From: a virus
Virus record (IMG/VR): IMGVR_UViG_3300025880_000150
Coordinates: 1-20,017 of that record
Length of the DNA: 20,017 nucleotides
Strand: one strand, 5' to 3'
A model generated the notes under the pieces. It was given only the letters and a program-made list of their open reading frames with translations, was not told where the DNA came from and did not search any database. The number at the start of each line of letters is the position of its first letter. Position 1 is the first letter of the stretch. Shown here piece after piece: positions 1 to 17,843 of the stretch. The position numbers and the translations under genes are program-made.

Positions 1-306
1 TCTTACTTCAAAGTTTAACATTCTTTTCTTAGCAAATACTCTCATTTCTTTCAAAAAATCATACCATTTTGTTTTTATAGATGAATCGTTTGAATTAAAT
101 AGGTTCTCACTGTACATTACTACAATACTTTTTTCATCTAAACTAACGCTTACTTTACCACCTTGATTTCCGTATTCAAAGTCATAAAAGCGCGAATCGC
201 TAGGTAAATTAGTAACAGCACCTTCAGCATTGCCTATAGTGATGTTTTTAAACCTACCGCGTAGTTTAGAAAACAGTTCTTCGCCAATTTTGTTTAAGTC
301 TTTCAT
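1..306 (-). CDS. Conserved T4-like marine phage protein, N-terminal part
   Basis: The first 102 codons of a gene that leaves the window at base 1. The protein begins MKDLNKIGEELFSKLRGRF and continues with a stretch containing FYDFEYGNQGGKVSVSL and later WYDFLKEMRVFAKKR. From memory it resembles a large conserved protein found in T4-like cyanophages, sometimes annotated as structural; I do not know a defined function. It lies directly downstream of the large terminase on the same strand. Its own late-promoter octamer overlaps the terminase stop codon, only 5 bases from this ATG, and no Shine-Dalgarno precedes the start. I see no signal peptide or membrane segment in the visible part. That it is a gene is well supported; the name is not. 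Confidence 0.75.
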   Translation of the reverse strand, partial: MKDLNKIGEELFSKLRGRFKNITIGNAEGAVTNLPSDSRFYDFEYGNQGGKVSVSLDEKSIVVMYSENLFNSNDSSIKTKWYDFLKEMRVFAKKRMLNFEVR

Positions 307-311
307 GTTAA

Positions 312-319
312 TATTTATC
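312..319 (-). promoter_or_regulatory. Late promoter octamer GATAAATA
   Basis: On the minus strand the sequence reads GATAAATA-TTAAC-ATG. It matches the T4 late-promoter form TATAAATA at seven of eight positions. In T4 the octamer occupies about -13 to -6, so the predicted +1 is the A of the downstream ATG at 306. The octamer overlaps the terminase stop codon (318-320). Confidence 0.7.
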
Positions 320-1898
320 AATAATTGTTACTAACGAAGATTGGCATTGGTTCAACATAATCCCCGTGTTGATCTGATTGATTAAAGGTATCATAGATTC
401 TAGGATCCCAATCTTTGAGTACATCCATCATTCTAAGTGCTAGTAGCGTTGCACTGATTAAATCGTCAGTTTGCCCTAGTTTTGCATTATAACTTGACCC
501 TGTAGCCACGTAACTTTTAAGTTCACTTATCATAGGCTTGCTATGTAGAATCATTTTATCATTTTCAATCATAGTCTTTAATCGACTACATGCTGTTACT
601 TTAGAGCCGTGTGTAGTATTAAATCCTTTTCTAAACTTGCGTACATGTCCTTTTCTAATTGGTTCACTTACAAATAGTCCGGGTATGTTTTCTTCACCGA
701 AGTCATTTATAACAATAAGTGCGGCTTCGCCTAATCCATTATTCTCTACACTCCAATAGATTGTACTTGCATCACCTGTTTCTTGTTCAATGTGTTTACA
801 TATATCTGTCATTATTCTTATCTGTGCAGGAATAGCAGTTTGATTGTGTTGCCATTCTGCTACTTGTTCGTAACTTGGTAATTCAAATACCTGTATAGCG
901 GCATTATCACCACCAGTGCCCATACTAGGATCGAGTGCTACCGCATATGTATATTCCCTACTAGGTTTTTTATACCAACGTGTTTGCCCCATATTAACAA
1001 TAGGAGCATCGCCTTCCATAGCCGCAAGTTTAATTGAATTAATTAATGTTTCATCATATACTAAGAATTCGCAATCGTATTCTCGTTTAAATCTTTCTTC
1101 ACCAATACGTCCTAGTTCTTCGTCTTTCCATGCCTCATCTCTATCTGGATGTTCTTGCCAGTAACTACGGAAACTATGAAAGCCATTACGTCCTACTTCA
1201 TTTTCATTACCGTGTTCGTCAAACTTATCTTCTGCTTGTTTCCAAATAGTAGCAAAGGTATCTTCATCTGAGTTTGGTGTGCTTGTAAGAATAGCACGAC
1301 CACCTGTTGCTAGTGTAGGTGATATTGATGTCCAAAAGTCTGTGGCAACGTTTGGCATAACAAATGCAAACTCATCACAGTATAGTAATGATATACTCAT
1401 ACCACGTCCTGTGTTACCTGTTGTTGTAGCACTTACAATACGTGAGCCATTTTCAAATTCAATTGAACCTTTGTTATAGTTTGTAACTCCTGCTCTAATA
1501 TGATCAGCACACATTTCATATCCGTATCTAATACGTTGCATAATTTCTTGTGCGCCTGTGTATTTGTGTGCGGCAATTAGAATAGTTTGATCTGGATTAA
1601 ACATAGCATACCATAACAGATAAATTGCGGCGCAAGTAGTCTTGCCTGTTTGCCTTGGTAGCATGTTAATATTAAATCTATAATCGTGATAACTTTGAAG
1701 CAATCTAGTTTGATATTCGTAAGGGTCAAACAAAAGTTTGCCTCTTACAGGATGCTGTATATAAGCAAAATTCCGTGCAAAGTAATCATAACCAAATTTA
1801 GCGTCACTGCATTTAAGCAGTTCTTCAACTTGGTCGTTTGTAAATGTTTCTCGTTTATTGGCTTTCTTAATTAAGACGCCGTCAAGTGATTTGCTCAT
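318..1898 (-). CDS. gp17: Terminase large subunit (gp17), packaging ATPase/nuclease
   Basis: The motor that pumps DNA into the prohead and cuts the concatemer. All landmarks of the T4 gp17 family are visible in the 526 residues: Walker A RQTGKT at about 82-87, Walker B LLYCDEFAF with D175 and E176, coupling motif TSTPN at about 205-209, then an RNase H-type nuclease domain with acidic residues D323 (ALDPS), E385 (VENNG) and D478/D479 (TDDLISA). T4 gp17 is 610 residues, so this is a somewhat shorter member. The start at 1898 sits 5 bases after a late octamer and lacks a Shine-Dalgarno; a strong terminator separates it from the preceding gene. The small subunit gp16 lies three genes upstream on the same strand, with two conserved genes between them. 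Confidence 0.97.
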   Translation of the reverse strand: MSKSLDGVLIKKANKRETFTNDQVEELLKCSDAKFGYDYFARNFAYIQHPVRGKLLFDPYEYQTRLLQSYHDYRFNINMLPRQTGKTTCAAIYLLWYAMFNPDQTILIAAHKYTGAQEIMQRIRYGYEMCADHIRAGVTNYNKGSIEFENGSRIVSATTTGNTGRGMSISLLYCDEFAFVMPNVATDFWTSISPTLATGGRAILTSTPNSDEDTFATIWKQAEDKFDEHGNENEVGRNGFHSFRSYWQEHPDRDEAWKDEELGRIGEERFKREYDCEFLVYDETLINSIKLAAMEGDAPIVNMGQTRWYKKPSREYTYAVALDPSMGTGGDNAAIQVFELPSYEQVAEWQHNQTAIPAQIRIMTDICKHIEQETGDASTIYWSVENNGLGEAALIVINDFGEENIPGLFVSEPIRKGHVRKFRKGFNTTHGSKVTACSRLKTMIENDKMILHSKPMISELKSYVATGSSYNAKLGQTDDLISATLLALRMMDVLKDWDPRIYDTFNQSDQHGDYVEPMPIFVSNNY

Positions 1899-1903
1899 AG
1901 TAA

Positions 1904-1911
1904 TATTTACC
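1904..1911 (-). promoter_or_regulatory. Late promoter octamer GGTAAATA for gp17
   Basis: The minus strand reads GGTAAATA-TTACT-ATG, with 5 bases between the octamer and the terminase start, so the predicted +1 falls on the ATG. The terminator at 1913-1939 lies immediately upstream, which would make this the main source of gp17 mRNA. Confidence 0.6.
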
Positions 1912-1912
1912 G

Positions 1913-1939
1913 AAAAAAATAGGACCCGAAGGTCCTATT
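1913..1939 (-). terminator. Rho-independent terminator, UUCG tetraloop
   Basis: The minus strand forms a perfect 9-bp stem AATAGGACC / GGTCCTATT closed by a TTCG loop (stem-loop 1918-1939). The last two bases of the 3' arm open a run of seven T residues (1913-1919). It lies 18 bases after the stop of the 243-residue gene and just before the gp17 promoter, so it insulates the two units. Confidence 0.9.
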
Positions 1940-1957
1940 GAATAGTGTTGGGGGGTG

Positions 1958-2689
1958 TTAACCGCAGTGTGCCGCGAATAGTTTTTCGAATTTGCCTTTA
2001 TCGCAACCGTATCCGTCTTGTACTTTTTGGAACATTTCTGTTTTAGTACAACCGCTTGCCATAAGTTTTTTCATTTCGCCTACACATCCTGATTCGTCAA
2101 AGTCATCTTCTTCTGCTTCAACTACTTCGTCTGTTTCTGCCATTTTAGACATAAGTGCATCACGTAGTGCTGATTGTAATTCTTCTACAGCCATTGCATT
2201 GTCACCGTCTTGTGCTTTTGCATATGCTTTCTTCTCACGGTTAATACCGCCTGATAAATCTTTAGTCATATACTGATGATCTTTATAATCTTCTTCTGGT
2301 GAGTTGTCGTAGCCTGCTTCTTCTACGTCATCTTCCATGTCCATACCCATGATAGTATCTTTGCCATCTTTGCCTTTGTCCATGTCTGGCATGTCTGGTG
2401 GTCCGTCCATTCCGTCTATATCCATCGGCGGTGCTAGTTTAACTAGGTCACGCATTTTACCCATGTCTGGTGGTCCCATTGGTGGCATCATATCAGGCTT
2501 CATTGCTCCTGCATCTGGTGCTCCACCGTCACGCATAATTTGTACTAGGCGTGCAACATCATCTGCTGTTTCGCCTGACATATTAATACTCATTGAAGCC
2601 GCTTCATTAATCTGCTTAACTTCTTTTGGACCGTCCATAGAATCTAAAGTGTTCTCCAGGTCCGTTAATTTTTGTAATAAATCTTTCAT
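1958..2689 (-). CDS. Conserved T4-like phage protein, Met/Pro/Asp-rich middle
   Basis: A 243-residue acidic protein with three visible parts. The N-terminus (1-60) includes the segment SMSINMSGETADDVARLV, which I recall from T4-like cyanophages. The middle (about 65-125) is low-complexity and rich in Met, Pro, Asp and Gly, with PPDMGKM, PPDMPDMDKG and similar repeats. The C-terminus (about 195-243) is a compact Cys-containing segment with four Cys in GCVGEM, SGCTKTEM, YGCDKG and the final HCG. No enzyme motif is visible. The start is supported by an AGGAGG Shine-Dalgarno that overlaps the stop of the upstream gene, so the two are probably translationally coupled. It could be a virion or scaffold component given its place between gp16 and gp17, but that is inference. 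Confidence 0.8.
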   Translation of the reverse strand: MKDLLQKLTDLENTLDSMDGPKEVKQINEAASMSINMSGETADDVARLVQIMRDGGAPDAGAMKPDMMPPMGPPDMGKMRDLVKLAPPMDIDGMDGPPDMPDMDKGKDGKDTIMGMDMEDDVEEAGYDNSPEEDYKDHQYMTKDLSGGINREKKAYAKAQDGDNAMAVEELQSALRDALMSKMAETDEVVEAEEDDFDESGCVGEMKKLMASGCTKTEMFQKVQDGYGCDKGKFEKLFAAHCG

Positions 2690-2690
2690 A

Positions 2691-3254
2691 TTAGCCTCCT
2701 ACAACTGCTTTAGTGTTCTCTGATGAATCAATGTCAGCACTTTCACCTTTTGGTGCCGCTTCCATTGGATCTGTATTACGTTCTTTACGTGCTACTTCTA
2801 ACTCTTTGAGTAAGTCCATTACTCTGTTACCAGCAACATGATCTTGTGCTTTTGGATCTGCTTGTTCCATTTCTAAAGTATCAAGTTTTGATTCATAAGG
2901 TTCGCCGCTTTTTGGTGCTTGATATTCTTCTCTTGGATCATTAGCATTTCTTACAATAACATGACTTTGTTCACATTCGCAACATTTACAAATATAATCT
3001 TGTAACACTTGTGATGTAGTTGGATATGCTACTTCTGCATCGTAGTAAGTAACTTCCATGTTTTGTAATTGTGGAAAATCGAGTGGGCGTTCTTGTATTG
3101 GTGTCTTTTTACCATTTGACATTGAAACAAGATCAAACTTTTTCAATGCAGTTTCAAGTGAATCTTGAATACCTTCTTTGGGTGCGCCTGCTACCCCGAT
3201 TTTAAATTCGTAAGTCTTTTTTGACTCAGTTAATATTTGCGTAAATGTTTTCAT
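2691..3254 (-). CDS. Conserved T4-like phage protein of unknown role
   Basis: A 187-residue soluble protein beginning MKTFTQILTESKKTYEFKI. It has a CKCCEC cluster near residue 90 inside a predicted alpha/beta region, followed by a charged, probably disordered C-terminus rich in Glu, Lys and Pro. From memory similar proteins occur in marine T4-like phages next to terminase genes, without a known function. The cysteine cluster could bind a metal, but no second ligand pair is evident. It starts behind an AGAGGA Shine-Dalgarno and its own late octamer at 3274-3281, and ends one base before the next gene, supplying that gene's ribosome binding site from its last codons. Confidence 0.8.
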   Translation of the reverse strand: MKTFTQILTESKKTYEFKIGVAGAPKEGIQDSLETALKKFDLVSMSNGKKTPIQERPLDFPQLQNMEVTYYDAEVAYPTTSQVLQDYICKCCECEQSHVIVRNANDPREEYQAPKSGEPYESKLDTLEMEQADPKAQDHVAGNRVMDLLKELEVARKERNTDPMEAAPKGESADIDSSENTKAVVGG

Positions 3255-3272: not shown

Positions 3273-3776
3273 CTATTTATCTTTATCCATATCTTTTAAT
3301 CTTGCTAATAGACTGTTCCTATCAGTAACAATAGCACCGTGACCATTCACAATACCGGCTTCTTCTATGGGTGAATCTTTATCTTGTTTCTCTTTTTTCA
3401 GTTGTAGGTCAATCATTTTAAGTTTTTTGTCCATTTTTGCTACTTTAGCATCTAATGATGTTTTAAGCATTGACCCTGCTACTTCAAATACTCTACCACT
3501 ATATCTGCTTTCTACATTCATACCAAGATCCATCAAATCTTCATAACTTTGTAGTGCTTTGTCTGCAATCTCGTTAAGTTCAGCATCTGCTTTTTCACCT
3601 AGCCCTTTGACACTAGGTAATGCACTAGCAATCTTATCAAACTCTGCTATATCACGCATAGTTTCTTTTTGCTCAGCAACTTCATATTTCTTTTGTTGCT
3701 TTTCTTGCTTAGATGCCTCGTCAATAATTTCCTTTGAATCAGGTAAATCAAGCAAGTCTTGTAGTTTCTTTGTCAT
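3273..3776 (-). CDS. gp16: Terminase small subunit (gp16)
   Basis: The DNA-recognition and regulatory partner of the gp17 motor. The 167 residues are mostly helical and charged, the length of T4 gp16 (164). The segment EDLMDLGMNVESRYSGRVFE, followed by VAGSMLKTSLDAKVAKMDKK and LKMIDLQLKKEK (about 80-130), corresponds to the central coiled-coil oligomerisation region, and closely resembles small terminases of marine T4-like phages as I remember them. Flanking regions are variable and likely flexible. Upstream, a weak late-type octamer GCTAAATA overlaps the methyltransferase stop codon. There is no strong Shine-Dalgarno, only a GGA about 10 bases before the ATG. The stop codon overlaps the next gene's late promoter. 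Confidence 0.85.
   Translation of the reverse strand: MTKKLQDLLDLPDSKEIIDEASKQEKQQKKYEVAEQKETMRDIAEFDKIASALPSVKGLGEKADAELNEIADKALQSYEDLMDLGMNVESRYSGRVFEVAGSMLKTSLDAKVAKMDKKLKMIDLQLKKEKQDKDSPIEEAGIVNGHGAIVTDRNSLLARLKDMDKDK
3274..3281 (-). promoter_or_regulatory. Late promoter octamer GATAAATA
   Basis: GATAAATA on the minus strand overlaps the gp16 stop codon. The predicted +1 is at about 3268, giving a leader of about 14 bases that contains an AGAGGA Shine-Dalgarno before the ATG at 3254. This is the ordinary leadered arrangement. Confidence 0.7.
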
Positions 3777-5238: not shown

Positions 5239-6491
5239 CTAGGTCCATTTCTTCCTGATTGTAATGTTGATCCTGAACTAGAACCAACTGATGTAGAAGT
5301 ACCTACGTTTGCTCCAGCACCGCCAAAAGCATCTAAACTGTTACTTGTACTAACACCTGCCGCTGTATTATTATTAGCGGCCGCTTGCATAATTCTATCA
5401 GAATAAATTGCACTGCTAGTATTTACTGATCCACCGTTTGTACTTGTTACTGACGCACTGCCACCGTTGCCAGATCCTTTAGGAATATTAATGTTGCTTA
5501 ATCCTCCAACATTTTCTCTTCCTATATTTGTGATTGCTCCTTTAAGAATATTAAATCCTTCTTCTCGCAATCCTTCTTTTGATAATGACTTTGCATTTTT
5601 AAATGTATTAAATGCTGTTAATGCTGTACCTAAGTTAAACTGGCCTCCTGCAATATCGCCAAGAACATCGCTAATCCCGCCAATTACACCACCGCCACCA
5701 AATAAACTACTAGTGCCGCCACCGCCTATTGTTAATGGACTTGGTGTTTTATCATAGTGTGTAGTTGCAAAACCTTTTGGACTATTTTCGCCTGTTGGAC
5801 CTCTACTATAAAATACTGCTTCGTATGCTATACTAATTTGATTTTGTGACGGGGTACTGTTGTCGCCACTATCCATTTGATCATGTGTCAACCCAGTTAT
5901 CATAGGATTTACTAGTGTGTATCCTAGATACTCATGTCTCGCCATTTGGTAAATTGTAATTTTATTAAAGAATGGTGTTTTATGATCGTTGTCTAAACCG
6001 TATCTATAATTTTGTGTTATTGGATCAGTATATGTGTTACGAGGATTGTAAGGTGGATTAACGCCATCATCTCTATAATTACCGTCTCTGAAATAATATC
6101 TATAATATGCTTCCATTAATGTTGTAGTCAATCCCATATTATCATCATGGAATGTAATGTTTACTGGATCGTATTCGATACTAGTTTGTAAATTCTTTTT
6201 ACGATTATACATGTTTTTAGTTGCAGTTTGAATACTGAACTTAGGTAAATCTGCAGATTTTACCAGCATGTTAATTTCATTTCTATGTCTTTGCTCTAAT
6301 TGAGGTATAACTTTTTGTGCTTCTGGACTTAATTCAAATACACAATGATATAAGAACTTTGTCTTGGGTGCAAGACGCATACTGTCGTCTGTGAATAAAC
6401 GAGCCGCATGTTGGTAATCTTTTAAATTACCGCCAGGGTTTGTTGCACCCTGTAAAACATTATTTAAAAATCCATTAAGTATGTTAGCCAT
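5235..6491 (-). CDS. Tail-tube-like structural protein with Gly/Ser/Asn-rich C-terminus
   Basis: A 418-residue protein. The N-terminal 250 residues form an ordered domain with segments such as MLVKSADLPKFSIQT, NMYNRKKNLQTSIEYDPVNI and TFHDDNMGLTTTLMEAYYRY. Their order (a 'directions to the axis' strand, a basic loop, then a tyrosine-rich helix) recalls the gp19 tube fold and its baseplate relatives gp48/gp54. From about residue 253 to the end the sequence is low-complexity, Gly/Ser/Asn/Thr-rich and probably disordered. It is placed immediately after gp19 with its own promoter. A tube-initiator or baseplate role is possible; it may equally be another virion protein. The start lies 5 bases from a late octamer. 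Confidence 0.7.
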   Translation of the reverse strand: MANILNGFLNNVLQGATNPGGNLKDYQHAARLFTDDSMRLAPKTKFLYHCVFELSPEAQKVIPQLEQRHRNEINMLVKSADLPKFSIQTATKNMYNRKKNLQTSIEYDPVNITFHDDNMGLTTTLMEAYYRYYFRDGNYRDDGVNPPYNPRNTYTDPITQNYRYGLDNDHKTPFFNKITIYQMARHEYLGYTLVNPMITGLTHDQMDSGDNSTPSQNQISIAYEAVFYSRGPTGENSPKGFATTHYDKTPSPLTIGGGGTSSLFGGGGVIGGISDVLGDIAGGQFNLGTALTAFNTFKNAKSLSKEGLREEGFNILKGAITNIGRENVGGLSNINIPKGSGNGGSASVTSTNGGSVNTSSAIYSDRIMQAAANNNTAAGVSTSNSLDAFGGAGANVGTSTSVGSSSGSTLQSGRNGPR

Positions 6492-6496: not shown

Positions 6497-6504
6497 TATT
6501 TATC
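6497..6504 (-). promoter_or_regulatory. Late promoter octamer GATAAATA
   Basis: The minus strand reads GATAAATA-TTTAT-ATG, putting the predicted +1 on the ATG at 6491. An AAGGA that could act as a Shine-Dalgarno overlaps the start of the octamer, so it would be present only on longer read-through transcripts. Confidence 0.7.
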
Positions 6505-6528: not shown

Positions 6529-6553
6529 TAAAAAAGGGTGACCTAAGCCACCC
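6529..6553 (-). terminator. Rho-independent terminator after gp19
   Basis: The minus strand reads GGGTG, an 8-base loop, CACCC, then a run of T residues (6529-6535). The stem can be extended by A-T and G-T pairs into the flanking AAAAGA/TTTTTT. It lies 34 bases past the gp19 stop and before the next gene's late promoter. Confidence 0.8.
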
Positions 6554-6586
6554 TCTTTTGAATACTATGGCAATATTACGGATTTA

Positions 6587-7216
6587 TTATAGTCCGCCGC
6601 CGCCTGTTACTAGACTGTTAATAGTTCTACCAACTGCTGTACCAATACCTTCACCTTGTGGTGATTGGATAGCATTGTCGTAACGTATTGCAAGTGCAAT
6701 AGTTACCGGTTCATTTGAACTATATGCTAGTGTGTTATAGTTTGCGTTTTGGATAAAGCAACCGTATAACTCGAATGTTTCTAGTACGTTTGGTGTGTTA
6801 GCACCGTTACCACCATCTAAGATTTCAATACGTGTTGTGTATTTGTAATCAATACCTGATGCCGCACTTGACTGTTCGAAAAAGTCAAATTGTTTCTGAA
6901 GTTGTTCGCCAACTAGTTTTTGTACACTGTTGTTTACATCTTCTCTTAAGTTTAATGTAATTGGTTCCCAAGTAGGACGACCTGCTAGGTATGCTCTACT
7001 GTTGTAAACTGGAATTTCTAATTCCTCAAAGTTTACTGTTGGGCGTGTTACATCAATAACTTGTTTTGTAAGTTCTGTTGTCGGTGTTGATACACCAAAG
7101 TTCTCAAGTGTCACTCTAAAACGATACTGTAGTTTCGGCATCAACAAACCTTGTGTTGATGAACTACTATCGCTCGCTAGTGGTACTGTAATTTTTGAGA
7201 GTGTTGAAATTGCCAT
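6587..7216 (-). CDS. gp19: Tail tube protein gp19
   Basis: The monomer that stacks into the inner tube of the contractile tail. The 209 residues compare with 163 in T4 and carry segments typical of marine T4-like tubes: MPKLQYRFRVTLENFGV at about 26-42, TKQVIDVTRPTVNFEELEIP, and WEPITLNLREDVNNSV. The C-terminus ends in a short Gly-rich tail (VTGGGGL). A proper AGGAG Shine-Dalgarno lies 9 bases upstream of the ATG, inside a 17-base leader predicted from the GATAAATA octamer at 7239-7246. It is flanked by a hairpin upstream and a terminator downstream, so it can be transcribed as its own high-level unit, as expected for an abundant structural protein. Confidence 0.95.
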   Translation of the reverse strand: MAISTLSKITVPLASDSSSSTQGLLMPKLQYRFRVTLENFGVSTPTTELTKQVIDVTRPTVNFEELEIPVYNSRAYLAGRPTWEPITLNLREDVNNSVQKLVGEQLQKQFDFFEQSSAASGIDYKYTTRIEILDGGNGANTPNVLETFELYGCFIQNANYNTLAYSSNEPVTIALAIRYDNAIQSPQGEGIGTAVGRTINSLVTGGGGL

Positions 7217-7238: not shown

Positions 7239-7246
7239 TATTTATC
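7239..7246 (-). promoter_or_regulatory. Late promoter octamer GATAAATA for gp19
   Basis: GATAAATA on the minus strand; the predicted +1 is at about 7233, followed by a 17-base leader with AGGAG and the ATG at 7216. It lies just downstream of the gp18-gp19 hairpin. Confidence 0.75.
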
Positions 7247-10200: not shown

Positions 10201-10533
10201 TCTAACAACGTATGCTCTATTACTTACGCCTAGTAATGAGTAAGCCGCTTGTAATCCATATTCATTAAGTTCACCTGCGTGTATCGGATTATTATTAGTA
10301 TCCGTATAAAACTTTGGTTCGCCGAATGTTTCTACTAAATCTCTTTGTGAGGTAACCAAAAAAGGTTTACCTGCATTTGCCGCTGTCGTCCCTGGTGCTG
10401 TACCAGTTCCGCCGCCATTTTGTTTATCTTGTGCGGTAGCAACAAATATCATTGGTACGGTGCCTGGTTCGCTGGGCGTGTAAAAACTTTCGTCTATTAC
10501 TTTAACCTCAACACCTGGTGATGATAATGCCAT
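7285..10533 (-). CDS. gp18: Tail sheath protein gp18 with large insertion
   Basis: The contractile sheath subunit. The N-terminus (MALSSPGVEVKVIDES, then PMIFVATAQDKQNG and AYVVRAG) and the C-terminal third (for example FPWFAPAGTRRGGV, GFTSDNAGNNIV, NVARLVIYMRSQ, AVEFIYIPLRLKN) are classic sheath segments. At 1082 residues it is far longer than T4 gp18 (659). The excess lies between about residues 118 and 665, rich in Ala, Thr, Ser and Gly, holding five short Trp/Gly modules and two flagellin-IN-like repeats. In T4 the equivalent extra domains point outward from the tail surface, so exposure is likely here. A perfect TATAAATA lies upstream, followed by a 24-base leader with AAGGAG. Confidence 0.95.
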   Translation of the reverse strand: MALSSPGVEVKVIDESFYTPSEPGTVPMIFVATAQDKQNGGGTGTAPGTTAANAGKPFLVTSQRDLVETFGEPKFYTDTNNNPIHAGELNEYGLQAAYSLLGVSNRAYVVRAGIDLAGLTASADAPTSNPANGTYWVDTASTIYGIFEWNSAAVTTTGGQSFSYKAPTVITEVTKLVGEVASGAPKTSVGAVGDYAITAASTLHKLYYKNESGAWVEVGTGAWKASWATASGTAGATTTSGLSFTLNSTTVTADNTTATALAAVINALNISGVTASVEAANDILRLHSTGVNIVLAEGTGALGDMGLVAGTYAAPALNIAPHTSVPEFGSGDTTPRPTGSIWAKTTTANKGAKWAIKVWNSTTALWDTKDVPIFSTNQAALATLDKTGGGANLATSSLYIKSNDAEASDLVANFKVYKRNSTGATSITSSAITTQASAGAITFTIQESIVGSASLSSAVSITGTATGAASDADVIAGAINNAAMTNVSASVDSSNRVVISHSKGGDFRIADTSGHLAEIGFSTTDTTNLYTAPAGDTSNDFVATNWKVLTATNGATAPTALATDGTLWYNSIVDEADIMIHNGTTWVGYQDSTSPYFAAAAGDKTDPAGPIVSATEPLALTGQSDGTALKDGDIWINTTNIDKYPEIYRWSHAKQLWVLLDSSDQTTQDGVLFGDARWGLAGANSKEATITELLTSNFLDFDAPDPALYPKGMILFNTRRSGFNVKKFVRNYIDVTADNGRQADAPMAGYYPHRWVTESANNADGSGKFGQSAQRAVVVQAMQAMINSNQDIRDDESRIFNLMAAPGYPELIGEMISLNYDRGLTAFVVGDSPATLDSSATSLNEWGTNVALAVEDNSDGLVSRDEYLGVYYPWGFTSDNAGNNIVVPPSHMMLRTIALSDQVSFPWFAPAGTRRGGVTNATATGYIDKEGEFVSIALNEGQRDTLFGISVNPITFITGAGLVCFGQKTRAKNASALDRVNVARLVIYMRSQLNKLAKPYIFEPNDKITRDEIKQAAESLMLELVGSRALYDYIVVCDESNNTPSRIDRNELYLDIAIEPVKAVEFIYIPLRLKNTGEIAGL
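8935..9216 (-). repeat. Flagellin-IN-like repeat, copy 2 (within gp18)
   Basis: Residues about 440-533 of gp18: TFTIQESIVGSASLSSAV, then DADVIAGAINNAAMTNVSAS, then NRVVISHSKGGDFRI, ending near AEIGFS and LYTAPAG. The order strand, helix with AIN, V-SAS, hydrophobic strand, G-x-x-x-x-I parallels copy 1 at 9601-9813. Confidence 0.55.
9601..9813 (-). repeat. Flagellin-IN-like repeat, copy 1 (within gp18)
   Basis: Residues about 241-311 of gp18: GLSFTLNSTTVTADNTT, ALAAVINALNISGVTASVEA, NDILRLHSTGVNIVL, ending GDMGLVAGTY. It aligns by eye with copy 2, including the IN motif, the V-x-AS strand and the GL/GF near the end. Confidence 0.55.
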
Positions 10534-10562: not shown

Positions 10563-10570
10563 TATTTATA
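10563..10570 (-). promoter_or_regulatory. Late promoter TATAAATA for gp18 (perfect T4 consensus)
   Basis: The only exact TATAAATA assigned as a promoter in the window. The predicted +1 is at about 10557, giving a 24-base leader with AAGGAG before the gp18 ATG. Confidence 0.85.
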
Positions 10571-10625: not shown

Positions 10626-10633
10626 GGTAAATA
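10626..10633 (+). promoter_or_regulatory. Possible late promoter GGTAAATA for the HNH-like gene
   Basis: GGTAAATA-CGTT-ATG on the plus strand, only 4 bases from the start codon. A GGTGAGG that could be a Shine-Dalgarno overlaps it from 10621. Either the octamer or the Shine-Dalgarno could be the working element; a TATAAT at 10591-10596 without a convincing -35 could supply a longer transcript. Confidence 0.4.
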
Positions 10634-10637: not shown

Positions 10638-10973
10638 ATGAGACCTTTATGTGATTGTAAACTGCGCCCTGCCGCTATAAACTATAAGAAAAACGGTAGA
10701 ATCTATTACCGTAAGAAATGCGAAGCATGTTTACGCAACGGGCCTAAGCATGGTGTACCTAAATGGAAGCAACGTGGTTATGTTAAAAAAGACTACTGTG
10801 AAAAGTGTAACTATAAAAGTAAACATCCAGAGCAATTCAATGTATATCATATAGATGGTAATTTAGATAATTGTTCTGTTTTAAACTTAAAAACAGTATG
10901 TGCTAACTGTCAACGTATTATACAGAAACAAGGAGTTCGTTGGAAGCAAGGAGACCTTTTACCTGACTTTTAA
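10638..10973 (+). CDS. Small HNH-type zinc protein
   Basis: A 111-residue basic protein. Two zinc-binding pairs are visible in the N-terminal half (CDCK and CEAC) and another two in the C-terminal half (CEKC and CANC). Between the latter lies YHIDGNLDN...LNLKTVCANCQ, the pattern of an HNH nuclease core: a central His-Ile-Asp, an Asn, and the C-x-x-C knuckle. The usual final His after CANC is Gln, so catalysis is uncertain. Similar small proteins sit by sheath genes in marine T4-like phages, as I remember. Possible roles are a packaging-linked nicking nuclease, a homing-type nuclease or a non-catalytic DNA-binding protein. It is on the opposite strand to its neighbours and overlaps the kinase gene tail-to-tail by 56 bases. 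Confidence 0.8.
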   Translation: MRPLCDCKLRPAAINYKKNGRIYYRKKCEACLRNGPKHGVPKWKQRGYVKKDYCEKCNYKSKHPEQFNVYHIDGNLDNCSVLNLKTVCANCQRIIQKQGVRWKQGDLLPDF

Positions 10974-11529
10974 GTTCATCTATACCTAAGTCGTTGTATA
11001 TAACATTATTAAAGTCAACTTTTGCCCAGCGCCATTCACTTTCATGTACTTCTTTAGGTTCAACACCAATATCTTGATACATACGCATCCATACAGGATC
11101 TTGACCGCGTCTTACACGCCAAACTTCGCCGTGTATACTTTTAATCATATTTGCTTCATTTGGAAAACGTACATCAGGAATAACAAAGTTTTTGTTAGGA
11201 TATTTAACTAGTTCTTGCTTTACTAAACTTACCCAAATACCATCATCAAACCCATGACGCATACAGTCAGTACCAAACTCTTGTAATACTAGTCTAGGTG
11301 TAATAGTGCGTCCAGTTTCTTTAGTCCAAAAGTCGTCTTGTGTTTCACGCCATTCTCTGCTTTCTACTGTGTCTCCTTCAAGCATAGCACGATCCCAGTT
11401 GAATACTGTTGCTACACCATCTTTTAATTTATCAGCAAAACTTAGTTTTGTAAATCCGTAATTTTCAACTAAGATATCTCCTACTGTTCCTTTGCCACAG
11501 CCAATTAAGCCGCATATTCCTATGATCAT
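10918..11529 (-). CDS. gp1: Deoxynucleoside monophosphate kinase (T4 gp1-like)
   Basis: Phosphorylates dNMPs to dNDPs, supplying precursors for phage DNA synthesis. The 203-residue protein opens with MIIGICGLIGCGKGT, a P-loop at residues 7-15, and carries PDVRFPNEA at 118-126, the characteristic signature of T4 gp1 and its relatives, plus HESEWRW at about 162-168. T4 gp1 is 241 residues, so this is a compact member. The ATG overlaps the stop of the upstream oxygenase (ATGA), making it the third gene of the sigma70-promoted mini-operon and hence likely expressed early, in keeping with a replication role. The last 56 bases overlap the HNH-like gene on the other strand. Confidence 0.9.
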   Translation of the reverse strand: MIIGICGLIGCGKGTVGDILVENYGFTKLSFADKLKDGVATVFNWDRAMLEGDTVESREWRETQDDFWTKETGRTITPRLVLQEFGTDCMRHGFDDGIWVSLVKQELVKYPNKNFVIPDVRFPNEANMIKSIHGEVWRVRRGQDPVWMRMYQDIGVEPKEVHESEWRWAKVDFNNVIYNDLGIDELKSQVKGLLASNELLVSV

Positions 11530-12143
11530 AATTTTAGTTCCGATGTGCCTCCGCCTACAGTCCCCCTAGCAAAGAAATTAAATGCCAAACTGTATCGTGG
11601 AGTTGTTGTTAGATTTGGGGTAACCATGTGTTCCAAATGACTAGGAAACAATACTAAGTCTCCTGATTTGGGTGATATGTAAAATTCATTTGTATTATAT
11701 TGAGTAGGTTCTTTAAATGATACTCTAACAGTATCATGAAATAAATTGTAATATAGATGTGATTTTTGGAAAACAATATCTCCTGCATCGGGTTCATTTT
11801 GAATATAATATACTCCACTAATCATAGCATTACTGTGCCAATGTAATGTGTTCTGTTCATTTTGTGAATGCCTATTAATCCAACTGTTTTGCATTTCAAA
11901 CTCTACATCGTCATTAACTTTAAGTTCGTCTTTTACAAATACGTTACATGCATTTTGAATTTGATCTTTTAACGATGCTAATTTTGGATTGTTCAATACA
12001 TATTTGTCTGATGTATGATCGTGCCCAGCCGCTTCATCAGGATAATCTAAGTTTTCAATCCATGCCATTGTTACAGGATCTACTGAGCCTATGTTTGCAT
12101 AAAACAAAGGAATTGAAAATAAAGGTGTTGTTTGATATTTCAT
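11526..12143 (-). CDS. 2OG-Fe(II) oxygenase family protein, copy B
   Basis: A 205-residue member of the phage 2-oxoglutarate/Fe(II) oxygenase group (the family I know as 2OG-FeII_Oxy_5). Visible landmarks are an LHWHSNAMISGVYY segment at about 99-112 bearing the first iron ligand, SHLEHMV at about 168-174 carrying the distal His, and RYSLAFNFF at about 183-191 with the Arg that would hold 2-oxoglutarate. It is clearly a tandem duplicate of copy A: MKYQTTPLFSIPLF matches MHYEVTPLFSTPLL and both end with a similar G-rich tail. The start overlaps the stop of copy A by ATGA. The substrate is unknown; protein, nucleotide or sugar hydroxylation are possible. Confidence 0.82.
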   Translation of the reverse strand: MKYQTTPLFSIPLFYANIGSVDPVTMAWIENLDYPDEAAGHDHTSDKYVLNNPKLASLKDQIQNACNVFVKDELKVNDDVEFEMQNSWINRHSQNEQNTLHWHSNAMISGVYYIQNEPDAGDIVFQKSHLYYNLFHDTVRVSFKEPTQYNTNEFYISPKSGDLVLFPSHLEHMVTPNLTTTPRYSLAFNFFARGTVGGGTSELKL

Positions 12144-12784
12144 AAGTTTACCCTAACTGAGTTCTTTCCTAGTTTGCCTTTAGGAAAATAATTAAAAGCC
12201 AAACTATATCTATCTTGTTTATCATTACTGAGTGTAACCTCATGCTCTAAGTGGCTAGGAAAAATTAAACAATCTCCTGTCATAGGTTTAACTGTCCATG
12301 CGCCTACAGTATATTGGCTCCAATTTTCTTTAGTATTAGGACGTACATGTTCTGGAAATGAATTTAAATGTTGTCTATTTTTTCTAAATGTAATAGGATT
12401 AGATTGTTCACCTACTTCAGGATAATATACTCCACTAATTACTGAATTTGCATGATTATGTAATCCTATGTCGCTACCGACATTCATTTTATTAATCCAA
12501 CTTGTGGTTAAAACAAACTCAGTATCATCGTCTACATCTAATACAGTGTATGTAAAATGGTCTACTGCTTTTTTAATAAGAGTTAGTAAGTTGCTTAATT
12601 TCGGCTGGCTTAACACGTCAAATCCTCGCTCTGACGCTGGTAAATGATCTTCACTGCCATATTGTGCAACAGAACTATCAGGACATTCTAATCGCTTCAT
12701 CCATGCAAGTGTAATAGGATCTAATGGTCCAATGTGTGTCTTTAATAACGGTGTAGAGAATAGGGGTGTAACTTCATAATGCAT
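12140..12784 (-). CDS. 2OG-Fe(II) oxygenase family protein, copy A
   Basis: A 214-residue paralog of the downstream gene and the first gene of the mini-operon. Landmarks are GLHNHANSVISGVYY at about 125-139, SHLEHEV near 180 and RYSLAFNYF near 193, corresponding to the iron-binding His region, the distal His and the 2-oxoglutarate-binding Arg of the family. The fold is a double-stranded beta-helix in relatives. No Shine-Dalgarno precedes the ATG; a sigma70-type -10 element ends just 6 bases upstream, so the mRNA would begin at or next to the start codon. Expression is expected to be early rather than late. The substrate is not evident; being grouped with dNMP kinase hints at nucleotide metabolism, but copies in marine phages are found in many contexts. 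Confidence 0.82.
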   Translation of the reverse strand: MHYEVTPLFSTPLLKTHIGPLDPITLAWMKRLECPDSSVAQYGSEDHLPASERGFDVLSQPKLSNLLTLIKKAVDHFTYTVLDVDDDTEFVLTTSWINKMNVGSDIGLHNHANSVISGVYYPEVGEQSNPITFRKNRQHLNSFPEHVRPNTKENWSQYTVGAWTVKPMTGDCLIFPSHLEHEVTLSNDKQDRYSLAFNYFPKGKLGKNSVRVNL

Positions 12785-12790: not shown

Positions 12791-12819
12791 ATAATACTAT
12801 CAATATTTCAGTTTGTCAA
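12791..12819 (-). promoter_or_regulatory. Sigma70-type promoter, TTGACA-17-TATTAT
   Basis: On the minus strand a perfect -35 TTGACA (12814-12819) is followed after exactly 17 bases by TATTAT (12791-12796), then TATACT and the ATG at 12784. It lies between the gp13 stop and the oxygenase A start. It would let host RNA polymerase transcribe the mini-operon before the late switch, with +1 at or next to the ATG. Confidence 0.75.
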
Positions 12820-12826: not shown

Positions 12827-13585
12827 TTAACCTATTGTGAATCCGTAGCCCATTCCGCCGGCTACTTGCTGTGACACATCCATTTCTAGTTTTTCTAGTT
12901 CTGCTTGTGCTTCTGCTTTTAATGCATCACCGTTAAGTGAACTACCGCCTTGTGGGCCTGCTATTTGTGCAAACTTGCTACGTGCTTCTCCAAGCATGTA
13001 TTTACAAGTTGCAACAGTATAATCTTTAATCCATTGGCTTGCTAGATAATCTGCCAATAGTTGCTCATCTGGACGATAGTTATAACATAGTAGTAACAAT
13101 GTTTCTTGTGTGCGTGGACGCTGTAACATTGTAAATTCTTTTGTTGTTGTATTCCATTTGAATTCAATATAAGAACCAAACATACGTCCTACTAATTCTT
13201 GGTACTGACTAAACATATCGTATGTTGCTAATCCGCCCATGTTTGAACTTGATAACAAATAAGTATTTGTGTATGCCATGTTGAATGGTTCAAACAATGT
13301 ACCGCCATCGCCTCCACCACTACGTGAACCAATTGAACGTCTAAATACTCTTCTTACCTCAATAACATTTTCTGGTAAAACATATGTATTTTGATCTTCG
13401 ACTGTTGGCATAAACATGTACGATTCTTCAACTGAATTATCACTACGTTGTCTAAATTTTGACAACGCCTTGCCTAATGCAGTTTCATAATGAACTGGAT
13501 CAAGTTCAACGTCTACCATACCTCCGCCTAATAAAGCGTAAACGTAGTCGTAAACTTCTTGTTTTTTAGTTGCTAATGTAGCCAT
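12827..13585 (-). CDS. gp13: Neck protein gp13
   Basis: Part of the neck that closes the filled head and connects it to the tail. The sequence (252 residues from the chosen start) shows segments well known in marine T4-like gp13: MVDVELDPVHYETALGKALS, then FRQRSDNSVEESY, then RSGGGDGGTLFEPFN and AYTNTYLLSSSNMGGLATYD, with CYNYRPDEQLL and IAGPQGGSSLNG later on. An upstream GTG at 13600 would add five residues, but it begins before the predicted transcript start of the promoter at 13604-13611. The ATG at 13585 also has a GGAG 8-9 bases before it and matches the usual MAT... beginning, so I chose it. It diverges from gp14. Confidence 0.92.
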   Translation of the reverse strand: MATLATKKQEVYDYVYALLGGGMVDVELDPVHYETALGKALSKFRQRSDNSVEESYMFMPTVEDQNTYVLPENVIEVRRVFRRSIGSRSGGGDGGTLFEPFNMAYTNTYLLSSSNMGGLATYDMFSQYQELVGRMFGSYIEFKWNTTTKEFTMLQRPRTQETLLLLCYNYRPDEQLLADYLASQWIKDYTVATCKYMLGEARSKFAQIAGPQGGSSLNGDALKAEAQAELEKLEMDVSQQVAGGMGYGFTIG

Positions 13586-13603: not shown

Positions 13604-13611
13604 TATTTATC
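13604..13611 (-). promoter_or_regulatory. Late promoter GATAAATA for gp13
   Basis: GATAAATA on the minus strand. The predicted +1 is at about 13598 and the leader is 13 bases long, with the GGAG ribosome site at its very 5' end. It lies 16 bases from the oppositely directed octamer of gp14. Confidence 0.75.
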
Positions 13612-13627: not shown

Positions 13628-13635
13628 GATAAATA
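13628..13635 (+). promoter_or_regulatory. Late promoter GATAAATA for gp14
   Basis: The plus strand reads GATAAATA-TGTGT-ATG with the ATG at 13641, so the predicted +1 is the A of that ATG. An ATG at 13617 lies upstream of this octamer and would not be on its transcript. Confidence 0.75.
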
Positions 13636-13640: not shown

Positions 13641-14795
13641 ATGCCAAGACTATCCTTATATAAACCAGAAAAGGGCAATGATTATCATTTTATGGACAAA
13701 CAAATCCATGAAATGTTTACTGTGGGCGGAACTGATATATTCATTCACAAGTATTTAGGCCCAAATAATCCTGATGAAGCAAACGCAACGGCGGATCAAC
13801 CCCGTTATAATGCTGTGAAAGAAACAAATATTCAAGATATGTTATTCTTAGAAAATAGGGATAGAAAGTATGATCCAGACATTTATACAATGCGTGGCAT
13901 TTATAATGTGCAGGATATTGACTTTGATATGAGTCAATTTGGATTATTTTTACAAAATGATACACTGTTTATGACTATTCCAATTAACGGAAGTGTTAAA
14001 ACATTAGGCAGAAAAATTATGAGTGGTGATGTTATTGAACTACCACACTTAAAAGATGAATATGCGGCTAATGACTATTCATATGCACTTAAAAGATTTT
14101 ATGTAGTTGAAGATGTAAACAGAGCCGCAGAAGGTTTTTCACCTACATGGTATCCGCACTTATATAGAATTAAATTAAAACAAATTGTTGACTCACAAGA
14201 ATTTAAAGAAATACTAGACTTACCTGCACAAGAAGGTTCAAGTGATACATTAAGAGATGTACTATCAACATATGAAAAAGAAATGCAAATTAATAATGCT
14301 GTAATTCAACAAGCAGAAGCAGATGCACCTAAGTCAGGATATGATACAGCACATTATTATACACTAGCAACTAATGATGATGGTACAGTTGCACTTAAAA
14401 CCGCAGACGAAACTGATATTGATGCTAGTAATATTGGTGTTGATGCAAGTGAAATAAGTGACCGTCCTGATAGATCAGGATACAAAGGATATTTACTTGG
14501 TGTTGAAGGTAATAATGGTGCTCCGTATGGTATGGGAATTAGTTTTCCAACTTCATCTGTAGACGGAGATTATTTTTTGAGAACAGACTATTCACCTAAA
14601 AGATTATTTAAGTATGACGGTAATCGTTGGATTAAAATGCAAGACGGCGTAAGGGTAGACTTAACTAATACTGATACACGTAATACACAAAAAACAACAT
14701 TTATTAATAACCCTGCAACGTCACAGATTGGTGGCGAAACAGTTAAAGAGAAACAGAGTCTTTCAAAAGCACTAAGACCTAAGGCAGATAATTAA
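13641..14795 (+). CDS. gp14: Neck protein gp14
   Basis: The neck partner of gp13. The 384 residues begin MPRLSLYKPEKGNDYHFMD, the usual start of marine T4-like gp14, and contain FLENRDRKYDPDIYTMRGIY, FGLFLQNDTLFMTIPING, PGDVIELPHL-like DVIELPHLKDEY and FYVVEDVNRAAEGFSPTWYP. The length exceeds T4 gp14 (256) through a C-terminal extension, which includes a DGDYFLRTDYSPKRLFKYDG-NRWIKM module near 308-335 like those in the sheath insertion. An upstream in-frame ATG (13617) gives 392 residues but is rejected on promoter position and homology. The gene overlaps the gp15 start by one base (TAATG). Confidence 0.92.
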   Translation: MPRLSLYKPEKGNDYHFMDKQIHEMFTVGGTDIFIHKYLGPNNPDEANATADQPRYNAVKETNIQDMLFLENRDRKYDPDIYTMRGIYNVQDIDFDMSQFGLFLQNDTLFMTIPINGSVKTLGRKIMSGDVIELPHLKDEYAANDYSYALKRFYVVEDVNRAAEGFSPTWYPHLYRIKLKQIVDSQEFKEILDLPAQEGSSDTLRDVLSTYEKEMQINNAVIQQAEADAPKSGYDTAHYYTLATNDDGTVALKTADETDIDASNIGVDASEISDRPDRSGYKGYLLGVEGNNGAPYGMGISFPTSSVDGDYFLRTDYSPKRLFKYDGNRWIKMQDGVRVDLTNTDTRNTQKTTFINNPATSQIGGETVKEKQSLSKALRPKADN

Positions 14796-16231: not shown

Positions 16232-16239
16232 TTATTTGT

Positions 16240-16680
16240 ATGAACCAGATAATTTGCAGTGGAACTCTATTCTACAGTTTAAAAACACAACGTTTTCTCT
16301 TATTACATCGTGCTCATGGCAAGACTAAAAACTTATGGGGTTTAGTAGGCGGCACGGGCGAAGGTAAAGAAACACCTTGGGAAGTACTTAAACGTGAAAT
16401 TACTGAAGAAGTAGGGTTTGAACCTAAAATCGAAAAAACAATTCCGTTAGAAACTTTTATATCAACCGATCATCAATTCCAATTCCACACTTACTTGTGT
16501 GCAGTTAAAGAAGAATTTATTCCTGCTTTAAATGGAGAACATGATGGATATGCATGGGTTAAAAGTGGTAGTTGGCCTAAACCATTGCACCACGGTTTAC
16601 GCAATACACTACAAAGTAAAATCAATCAAAGTAAATTAGAAACTGTTACAAAAGTTTTAAATTTACTTGACAAAGAATAG
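16240..16680 (+). CDS. Nudix hydrolase
   Basis: Nudix enzymes cleave nucleoside diphosphates linked to another group X. The complete Nudix box is present at about 38-60, GTGEGKE, seven residues, then REITEEVGF, fitting G-x5-E-x7-REUxEExGU exactly. The rest of the 146 residues form a typical small Nudix domain (start IICSGTLFYSLKTQRFLLLHR). The substrate cannot be deduced: oxidised nucleotides, NDP-sugars or capped RNA are possible, and being upstream of the heptose genes makes NDP-sugar turnover tempting but unproven. It lies 8 bases after gp15 without its own obvious promoter. The -35 element for the next operon is inside its last codons. Confidence 0.88.
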   Translation: MNQIICSGTLFYSLKTQRFLLLHRAHGKTKNLWGLVGGTGEGKETPWEVLKREITEEVGFEPKIEKTIPLETFISTDHQFQFHTYLCAVKEEFIPALNGEHDGYAWVKSGSWPKPLHHGLRNTLQSKINQSKLETVTKVLNLLDKE

Positions 16681-16695
16681 ATAGTAAGTTATAAT
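16667..16695 (+). promoter_or_regulatory. Perfect sigma70 promoter, TTGACA-17-TATAAT
   Basis: TTGACA at 16667-16672 and TATAAT at 16690-16695 with exactly 17 bases between, followed by AAATT and the ATG at 16701. Both hexamers and the spacer are ideal. No Shine-Dalgarno lies between the -10 and the ATG, so the transcript would begin at or within a base or two of the start codon. It should drive the heptose cassette with host RNA polymerase. Confidence 0.85.
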
Positions 16696-16700
16696 AAATT

Positions 16701-17843
16701 ATGAAAGTCTTAGTAATCGGAGATGTAATAATTGACAAGTATGTGTATGGCACTAGTTCGCGAATTAGTCCTGAAGCACCAGTGCCTGTAATTACATATA
16801 TCGAAGAAAAAGAAACATTAGGCGGCGCAGGTCTTGTATATGAAAATTTAAAGAACTTAGATGTAGATGTTACATTGTTTGAAATAGATCAACCACGTAG
16901 TGTAAAGACACGTATCATGTGTGACGGACATTATATTACACGTATAGATGATGACAAGCCGGCAAAAGGAATGGAAGTACTAAAACAAGTACAAGAAACT
17001 GACTTTTCAAAATATGACTTTGTTGTACTAAGTGACTACAACAAAGGTGTTTTAGATGAAGCAAAAGATATTATTGCACACATTAACAAGTATAATTGTA
17101 AAGTAATTGTTGATCCAAAAGAAAATGCTTGGTTCTACGAAGGTGCTTGGTTGGTAAAACCTAACTACAACGAATTTCATGACTTAGGATTTGATGAATG
17201 GCAAGGTAATATTATTACAACTAATGCTGGCGAAGAAGTTATTGCACACATTGATGGTAAAAACTATGAGATCGAAGTAGAAACAGTTGAAGTATCAGAT
17301 GTTACTGGTGCAGGTGATTGCTTTATGGCCGCATTTGTTTATGGTCTTACAAAAGGTTACACACATAAAAAATGTTTAGAAATAGCAACAAAGGGTTCTA
17401 CTAAAAGTGTAAAGCATAGTGGCACATACCAATTATTAAAAGAAGATTTAGAAAATACTATTGTGTTTACTAACGGGTGTTTTGATATATTACACACAGG
17501 ACATTTTGAATTATTAAAGGCGGCTAAAGAAAAAGGTGATAAACTTATTGTAGGGCTCAATGACGACAATAGCGTAAAACGATTGAAGGGCAATAGCAGG
17601 CCAATTAATCCTGTAGAAATACGTAAAAAACAATTAGAAATTTTATCTTGGGTAGACGAAGTTATTGTGTTTAGTGAAGACACACCATACAATTTAATTA
17701 AATCACTAAAGCCGACCTTAATTGTAAAGGGTGGCGATTATAAAGTTAACGAAGTAGTAGGACACGACTTAACTAGTGTATACATTGTTCCTACAGTTGA
17801 AGACTTTTCAACTACAAGTATATTAGAGAAAATAAATGAATGA
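16701..17843 (+). CDS. hldE: HldE-type heptose 7-phosphate kinase / 1-phosphate adenylyltransferase
   Basis: A bifunctional enzyme of ADP-heptose synthesis: kinase acting on D-glycero-D-manno-heptose 7-phosphate, then adenylyltransferase on the 1-phosphate. Residues 1 to about 250 are a PfkB-type kinase with GDVIIDKY, RISPEAPVP (22-30), GGAG (41-44), SDYNKGVL and the DVTGAGD catalytic motif (200-206). From about 253 a nucleotidyltransferase follows with FTNGCFDILHTGH (256-268), RLKGNSRPINP, VKGGDY (342-347) and a final STTSI motif. E. coli HldE has 477 residues, so at 380 the kinase half is compact, with deletions near residues 60 and 165 relative to E. coli. All catalytic motifs appear retained. 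It is the first gene after the sigma70 promoter and overlaps hldD by 8 bases. Confidence 0.9.
   Translation: MKVLVIGDVIIDKYVYGTSSRISPEAPVPVITYIEEKETLGGAGLVYENLKNLDVDVTLFEIDQPRSVKTRIMCDGHYITRIDDDKPAKGMEVLKQVQETDFSKYDFVVLSDYNKGVLDEAKDIIAHINKYNCKVIVDPKENAWFYEGAWLVKPNYNEFHDLGFDEWQGNIITTNAGEEVIAHIDGKNYEIEVETVEVSDVTGAGDCFMAAFVYGLTKGYTHKKCLEIATKGSTKSVKHSGTYQLLKEDLENTIVFTNGCFDILHTGHFELLKAAKEKGDKLIVGLNDDNSVKRLKGNSRPINPVEIRKKQLEILSWVDEVIVFSEDTPYNLIKSLKPTLIVKGGDYKVNEVVGHDLTSVYIVPTVEDFSTTSILEKINE

Follow-up and report, generated by a model that had tools for sequence, protein, structure and literature searches.

T4-type late promoters set 4–5 nucleotides before ATG and a predicted class of leaderless phage mRNAs

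The late promoters of phage T4 depend on gp55 and are built on an octamer, TATAAATA, that begins at −13 (PMC2988020). Among bacteria, Caulobacter crescentus has 375 leaderless mRNAs (PMC4117421); among phages, lambda cI is named as a leaderless mRNA (PMC9031893), and phage transcripts are termed "often leaderless" in the paper on AR9, whose own leaders measure 26–491 nucleotides (nt) (PMC5312081). Here, we analyze the late octamers of a 20,017-base viral record, IMG/VR IMGVR_UViG_3300025880_000150 (hereafter the window, to which positions refer unless another phage is named), in which a T4-type packaging and tail module encodes TerL, sheath, two tail-tube-like proteins, neck, and head-closure proteins. 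An earlier note on this DNA had proposed that several of its promoters lie so close to the ATG that the mRNA lacks a leader; its reading of the sequence holds, and its interpretation is very probably correct. We put the probability that these short-spaced promoters give leaderless or nearly leaderless mRNAs, with a predicted leader of 0 to about 3 nt, at roughly 0.86.

As in T4, the octamer core recurs at structural and packaging genes, and a gp55-like sigma factor is found in relatives of the window. The differences are that none of the 36 ATAAATA sites of T4 stands 4–5 nt before an ATG, and that the window's clade, made up of giant bacterial viruses from the sea, has a loose second octamer base at this short spacing. 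Lambda cI is a single regulatory gene; it shares with the present case a phage mRNA starting at its AUG, whereas here packaging, tail, endonuclease, and some replication genes would be concerned across a lineage. As in the leaderless mRNAs of C. crescentus, the RNA is predicted to run from the start codon and there is no Shine-Dalgarno (SD) site, but here the phage's own sigma factor would be responsible, the late genes concerned would be a fixed set, and other late genes that share the promoter are SD-led. The Pelagibacter phages HTVC008M and Mosig likewise carry ATAAATA at exactly 5 nt (9 of 26 and 7 of 39 sites), but they have smaller genomes and belong to a different family, the Kyanoviridae. 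Our literature search, with most subscription journals outside its coverage, found no statement that T4-type late genes are leaderless, and in the paper on the phage Melnitz (PMC9004378) the word appears only in the reference list. Within the literature searched, a lineage-wide leaderless class with the T4 octamer would be undescribed.

Placement of the octamer in the window and its relatives

The phage of the window is known only as a metagenome fragment, and all start sites discussed here are predicted from sequence. Five octamers in the window stand 4 or 5 nt before an ATG. On the minus strand, GATAAATA at 312..319 overlaps the TerL stop codon (318) and is separated by 5 nt (TTAAC) from the ATG at 306–304; GGTAAATA at 1904..1911 lies 5 nt (TTACT) from the ATG of TerL (gp17) at 1898–1896; and GATAAATA at 6497..6504 lies 5 nt (TTTAT) from the ATG at 6491 of the second tail-tube-like protein. 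On the plus strand, the variant GGTAAATA at 10626..10633 precedes the ATG of an HNH endonuclease-like gene at 10638 by 4 nt (CGTT), and GATAAATA at 13628..13635 precedes by 5 nt (TGTGT) the ATG at 13641 of gp14 (a virion structural protein by PHROG). This gene is divergent from gp13, and their opposed octamers are 16 nt apart. The earlier note had set the octamer exactly 5 bases before the ATGs at 306, 1898, 6491, and 13641, and direct reading of the upstream sequences gives the same distances; the gene that it took to end at 306, however, begins there and runs off the left edge of the window, and the octamer of the HNH gene was absent from it.

Other octamers, all on the minus strand, leave room for a leader. 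These are GATAAATA at 3274..3281, 19 nt from the ATG at 3254 (SD-like AGAGGA); GATAAATA at 7239..7246, 22 nt from gp19 at 7216 (CAGGAG, with AGGAG as its core); TATAAATA at 10563..10570, 29 nt from gp18 at 10533 (AAGGAG); and GATAAATA at 13604..13611, 18 nt from gp13 at 13585 (TGGAGA, with TGGAG as its core). Clear SD sites had already been noted for these four genes; the spacing of 19–30 nt once given for this class measures 18–29 nt. The T4-type late promoter box, an 8-bp TATA element set roughly one helical turn upstream of the RNA start, is present as TATAAATA or GATAAATA at gp18, gp19, gp13, and the genes at 3254, 306, 6491, and 13641; at TerL and the HNH gene it takes the form GGTAAATA, which in the TerL octamer differs from TATAAATA at two positions.

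The unusual property of the octamer is its placement, rather than its number. With at most one mismatch it is not over-represented in the window (57 found against 66.1 expected). Five TAAATA sites stand 4–5 nt before the ATG of an open reading frame (ORF) of at least 60 amino acids (aa), compared with 0–4 for the 14 other orders of these letters, and the control that scores 4, AAATAT, overlaps the motif.

Relatives were drawn from IMG/VR as the best 80 of 598 TerL loci and the best 80 of 598 gp14-like loci, with longer contigs added later; the named phages closest to the window by TerL are PA5oct-like jumbo phages, at about 53% identity. The first set held 457 distinct ATAAATA sites. For 394 of them an ORF of 80 aa or more opened with ATG no further than 60 nt away; the distance was 4 nt in 23 cases, 5 in 115, 7 in 10, and 8 in 5, with no case at 6 and 10 spread over 9–15. 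Nine permuted 7-mers gave 1–14 sites at 4–5 nt against 138 for ATAAATA, and their top count at any distance, 37, was due to repeats of one gene. With the longer contigs included and ORFs of at least 60 aa, 509 of 638 ATAAATA sites lay near an ATG, with 25, 128, 1, 11, and 6 at 4, 5, 6, 7, and 8 nt, 13 at 9–15 nt, and 265 at 16–31 nt. The distance scan that the earlier note had suggested, run here on relatives, therefore gives a peak at 4–5 nt and not a flat spread. The distribution is bimodal, its second mode at 16–31 nt coinciding with the sites that have SD sequences. The 335-kb relative by itself has ATAAATA at 4–5 nt in 12 of 54 sites and [CGT]TAAATA in 13 of 82, and in 12 IMG/VR records, without an ORF check, ATAAATA-5-ATG occurs 42 times and the reversed control 7 times.

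At 4–5 nt the first base of ATAAATA is free (C, G, and T at 24, 69, and 31 sites). Among the 18 one-base changes at the other six positions, ATAATTA has 19 sites and ATAAGTA 14, with the remaining 16 at 9 or fewer each. The second octamer base is accordingly loose at short spacing, GTAAATA having 69 sites at 4–5 nt against 17 at 16–31 nt.

Grouping 905 NTAAATA sites by the downstream protein gave 202 families, defined as single-linkage BLAST groups in which fused frames can merge (as in the 306 family). The modal distance is 4 nt in 7 families and 5 nt in 29 (36 together), 6 nt in 2, 7 nt in 1, and 8 nt in 5. Spacing class is conserved gene by gene among the relatives. Sites at 4–5 nt make up 51 of 54 in the HNH family, 48 of 51 in the 6491 family, 44 of 46 for TerL, 38 of 45 for gp14 (all 38 at 5 nt), and 16 of 21 for a nucleotidyltransferase, whereas the leader families have none among 51 sites for gp19, 48 for gp18, and 49 for gp13 (5 of these at 2–3 nt), nor among the 58 and 57 sites of families matching the 3254 and 3776 genes by protein start. 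The 306 family is mixed, with 39 of 82 sites at 4–5 nt and 11 at 7 nt, and many of the remaining sites precede proteins that begin differently. Where single members change class, an SD-like site appears: 6491 relatives at 17 and 30 nt bear AAGGAG (L019) and GAGGA (L143), and a gp14 relative at 17 nt (L138) has AGGAGA right against the ATG. The baseplate wedge phrog_261 is short-class in the lineage of the window and that of HTVC008M alike. As to the "deliberate use of leaderless translation" first suggested for this genome, the conserved placement stands, and deliberateness is backed only in the sense of that conservation.

Predicted RNA starts and the competing explanations

The start codons themselves differ between the two classes. 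After ATAAATA (ORFs of at least 60 aa), sites at 4–5 nt lead to 163 ATG and no GTG or TTG, against 310 ATG and 26 GTG or TTG at 16–30 nt; after [CG]TAAATA at 4–5 nt there are 98 ATG and 5 other starts. Weighted over the 41 short families, the base before the ATG is most often T (33.5), then C (4.4) and A (3.0), and never G; T and C together make 37.9. Among the 88 leader families the count is 44 for A and 38.5 for T and C together. A pyrimidine before a purine start is the usual pattern at an RNA start. SD 4-mers occur in 6% of the short and 66% of the leader families (15% and 70% by site), in agreement with the SD-less starts claimed for the short-spaced genes, and the anti-SD energies of the two classes differ (p = 8e-13).

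Sigma70-type promoters show a similar geometry. On the minus strand, direct reading places a −35 box, TTGACA, at 12814..12819 and a −10 box, TATTAT, at 12791..12796, 6 nt before the ATG at 12784 of a 2OG-Fe(II) oxygenase gene; on the plus strand, TTGACA at 16667..16672 and TATAAT at 16690..16695 end 5 nt before the ATG at 16701 of a PfkB/cytidylyltransferase gene. Both have 17-nt spacers, and both distances are as previously reported. In the oxygenase family (11 sequences) 10 stand at 6 nt and 1 at 7, and in the PfkB/cytidylyltransferase family (20 sequences) 12 stand at 5 nt and 8 at 6. The pattern TTGACN-16..18-TANNNT has 649 sites in the relatives. An ATG follows within 60 nt at 223 of them, 5 nt away at 16 sites, 6 at 31, and 7 at 5; each distance from 8 to 21 has at most 4, and a hump begins at 22. 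With a strict TATAAT, the counts at 5, 6, and 7 nt are 7, 14, and 1 of 65, and further short-spaced families include a primase-like and a DNA-polymerase-like protein. The −10 hexamer ends at −7, so a 6-nt spacing puts +1 on the A of ATG. An octamer beginning at −13 with a 5-nt spacing puts +1 on the same base, and the sigma70-type spike at 5–6 nt and the octamer spike at 4–5 nt thus agree with one predicted +1.

Intrinsic-terminator-like hairpins with T runs stand upstream of two short-class octamers in the window, both on the minus strand. A 9-bp hairpin at 1913..1939 ends 1 nt before the TerL octamer (fold z −3.5), and a second, at 6530..6555, lies upstream of the 6491 octamer (z −2.8), where such a hairpin recurs at 44 of the family's 48 short sites. 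Overall, 88 of the 279 short sites have a terminator-like hairpin no more than 60 nt upstream of the octamer; the leader sites have 6 among 367, and random windows 11 among 3000. TerL upstreams were examined for 77 of the 80 loci, with hairpins judged by eye; 34 of 51 distinct upstreams, the window included, have a hairpin with a T run directly before the octamer. In an alignment of the window and 26 hairpin-bearing loci (8 near-duplicates or further members were left out), all 243 of 243 cells are paired and 35 are changed on both sides. Covariation is 0.404; shuffles give 0.100 ± 0.021, and sliding the hairpin gives no more than 0.061. Further pair types among these 27 sequences number 9, a count not exceeding that in shuffles. 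A covarying terminator directly before the TerL octamer would leave little room for read-through. As for where a leader could come from in the window, hairpins precede TerL and the 6491 gene and the neighbor of gp14 is divergent, which would leave little space for another leader at these three; co-directional genes precede those at 306, 12784, and 16701.

From these patterns we infer where +1 lies in these phages and that their short-class mRNAs are translated leaderless. In the proposed mechanism, host RNA polymerase with a gp55-like late sigma factor of the phage would transcribe one class of late genes; the sigma factor would read the octamer at −13 to −6, the RNA would begin on the A of the start codon, and the ribosome would use this 5'-terminal AUG without an SD site. 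A smaller set of other genes would reach the same geometry through host sigma70-type promoters, while a second late class, sheath and tube included, would have the same octamer 16–31 nt upstream together with an SD leader. A gp55-like late sigma factor (phrog_12791) is present in five of seven records (G001, G005, G008, G013 with two contigs, and PA5oct); no match was found in G002 (96 kb) or G004 (275 kb), linear records that may be incomplete.

Several observations weigh against leaderless starts. Three genes of the window are weaker examples by their octamers: that of the 306 gene overlaps the TerL stop codon, so translational coupling is possible; gp14 has another in-frame ATG 6 nt upstream, whose A is the final base of the octamer; and the HNH gene has an SD-like GGTGAGG beside its octamer, as many members of its family have GGTGA. 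The two sigma70-type examples are weaker as well, since a co-directional gene lies just upstream of each and read-through is possible. The lack of SD sites at short spacing is partly forced because the octamer fills that space. Terminators are present in 9 of 41 short families (and 5 of 88 leader families), and 79 of the 88 short terminator sites belong to TerL (35) or the 6491 family (44). Of the 17 TerL upstreams without an adjacent hairpin, 6 hold a cargo gene, 1 a remnant, and most others look like the end of an upstream gene, where read-through could occur. The sigma70 spike is carried largely by two families (20 kinase-like and 11 oxygenase of 64 sequences). The looser scan behind those 64 picked up intragenic sites too, and its spike is small when the 335-kb relative is taken by itself (4, 8, and 3 at 5–7 nt, with up to 8 elsewhere). 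The strict T4 rule at 4 nt puts +1 on the T of ATG, so that a 1-nt shift must be assumed. Two families that are short-class in the main also have sites at 7 and 8 nt (11 of 82 and 4 of 45), and leaders of 2–3 nt may therefore be used too. Finally, T4 has the looser [CGT]TAAATA at 5 nt in 4 of 43 sites.

Among the other explanations, the one that survives best, improbable as we consider it, takes the octamer by the ATG for an A/U-rich translation signal (for example, an S1-binding, non-SD element), with no promoter function and the mRNA arriving from further upstream. The leakiness of intrinsic terminators would suit such an mRNA, as would the position of the 306 gene immediately behind TerL and that of some TerL genes immediately behind another gene, with no terminator between. 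Yet the identical octamer stands 16–31 nt upstream of SD-led late genes, and its distance to the ATG in the short class varies by only about 1 nt, a precision for which a loose A/U-rich signal would have no use. Nor does this explanation account for matching spacings in sigma70-type promoters with −35 boxes, or for a covarying hairpin and T run 1 nt before the octamer at the window's TerL, with the hairpin in 33 further distinct upstreams.

It is less probable still that the promoters are real but translation mainly starts at another codon, the short spacing being incidental. In its favor is gp14, where the in-frame ATG begins inside the octamer, the window's frame is open back to 13617, and none of 38 short sites is free of an in-frame ATG, GTG, or TTG upstream; one PA5oct gene is also annotated from a start upstream of such an octamer. 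In the other families, an in-frame stop with no ATG, GTG, or TTG before the ATG is found at 43 of 48 (6491), 46 of 51 (HNH), 30 of 44 (TerL), 22 of 39 (306 family), and 15 of 16 (nucleotidyltransferase) short sites, and the proteins are alike from their first codons (e.g., MPRLSLYK and MSKSLDGV). Chance, whereby AT-rich genomes would occasionally yield a TAAATA near ATG that relatives then inherit, is barely credible: the number of octamers in the window is indeed not above expectation, but in the relatives and window TAAATA has 261 sites at 4–5 nt against 7–41 for the 13 remaining letter orders (the overlapping AAATAT has 146), 36 of 202 families have their mode there, and none of the ATAAATA sites of T4 (36) or Syn9 (26) stands at this distance.

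If the leaderless reading is true, a phage sigma factor sets the mode of translation by base-exact promoter placement. T4 late transcription is a model system, and orthologs that switch between leaderless and SD-led forms among relatives would offer a testable case for the purpose of leaderless translation. There is a bearing on annotation as well: programs that rely on SD sites to call genes may put such starts in the wrong place.

At TerL, the terminator and promoter (1904–1939 in the window) form a fused module, and some relatives hold differing cargo genes between it and TerL. A cargo gene is inserted in L017, L019, L026, L034, L037, and L047 and a remnant in L033, the inserted frame beginning 4–5 nt after the octamer. 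Behind the cargo, TerL has an SD-like AAGGA in L017, L026, and L034, GGGAGG in L037, and GGGAAG in L019, whereas in L047 it has its own ATAAGTA at 5 nt. In L033, the TerL start overlaps, by ATGA, a 13-codon frame that looks like the beginning of the cargo gene of L037. That a TerL parted from this promoter has an SD-like site or some other route of entry counts in favor of leaderless starts.

Short spacing in other phages and the question of the host

Across phages, we counted ATAAATA sites 4–5 nt from an ATG that opens an ORF of 40 aa or more, as given above for T4 and Syn9. S-PM2 has 1 of 33 and P-SSM4 2 of 33, while HTVC008M and Mosig have the counts cited at the outset; Melnitz, with 3 of 29, is not convincing taken alone, and PA5oct has 5 of 49, all at 5 nt and two of them convincing by ORF length. 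Pooled, the SAR11 and OM43 phages have 19 of 94 sites, and T4 with the three cyanophages has 3 of 128 (p = 1.3e-5 by Fisher's test, with sites in the same genome not fully independent). The looser [CGT]TAAATA stands at short spacing in 0 of 32 sites in Syn9, 4 of 39 in HTVC008M, and 1 of 98 in PA5oct. A pattern search without an ORF check gave, at exactly 5 nt, 8 of 13 for Mosig, 4 of 8 for Melnitz, 2 of 5 for P-SSM4, 2 of 4 for S-PM2, 0 of 7 for KVP40, 5 of 24 for Atu_ph07, 0 of 6 for Vibrio phage 2.275.O, 1 of 11 for RaK2, 2 of 4 for RB49, and 2 of 5 for CBB, several of these counts being too small to tell.

Syn9, S-PM2, P-SSM4, HTVC008M, Mosig, and Melnitz are all Kyanoviridae. Short spacing thus differs within one family, and host rather than ancestry may matter. 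The short class of HTVC008M includes the tube cap, DNA end protector, a tape-measure-like protein, baseplate wedge, and wedge initiator, and its head closure and tail tube genes have the [CGT]TAAATA variant at 5 nt. We conjecture that a leaderless start is suited to proteins made in few copies, and that its use tracks the host. More fully, and as a tentative idea that we hold to be rather less likely than its opposite, promoter placement may act as a translation code in T4-type phages that infect certain marine bacteria. The late promoter would then give leaderless mRNAs for a fixed set of machines, most of them low in copy number (terminase, neck, tube cap, wedge, endonuclease), and SD-led ones for abundant virion parts, and use of the code would follow the host ribosome and not phage ancestry. 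Within the Kyanoviridae, SAR11 phages use short spacing and phages of Synechococcus and Prochlorococcus hardly do. Exceptions to the low-copy rule are gp13, which is leadered, and the HTVC008M tail tube, which is short-class.

A simple rule of alphaproteobacterial hosts was considered and rejected: SAR11 phages fit, but phiM12 (Sinorhizobium) and Cr30 (Caulobacter) are without any TAAATA-4/5-ATG. The Sinorhizobium phage Phosso has 4 such sites against 2 in the control.

The SAR11 and OM43 phages (L231–L238, L309–L324) often have sigma70-type promoters 6–13 nt before ATG. Such spacings make up 9 of 18 sites with an ATG within 40 nt in HTVC008M, 7 of 17 in Mosig, and 7 of 19 in Melnitz, and would predict leaders of 0–7 nt, with long genes among those concerned. 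In PA5oct (set L216/L344), the gene at 144985, for a structural protein marked as detected by electrospray ionization tandem mass spectrometry (ESI-MS/MS), begins 5 nt after an octamer, and another gene, at 180267, has its annotated start on the upstream side of its octamer.

Neighboring genes and host labels

The oxygenase gene at 12784 is one of two adjacent 2OG-Fe(II) oxygenase genes at 11526–12784, and a third ORF, at 18626–19309, resembles them by look only. The gene at 16701–17843 encodes a PfkB kinase fused to a cytidylyltransferase, like a bifunctional heptose kinase/adenylyltransferase, here in a phage.

Host labels of the relatives disagree, as the bins that hold TerL relatives are assigned to Neomarinimicrobiota (2 contigs), Euryarchaeota, and Methylophilaceae (4 loci). 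The two contigs within a Neomarinimicrobiota genome bin, PBPT01000016.1 (L263, 335 kb) and PBPT01000082.1 (L264, 153 kb), carry TerL of the window's clade and are probably phage contigs misplaced in that bin.

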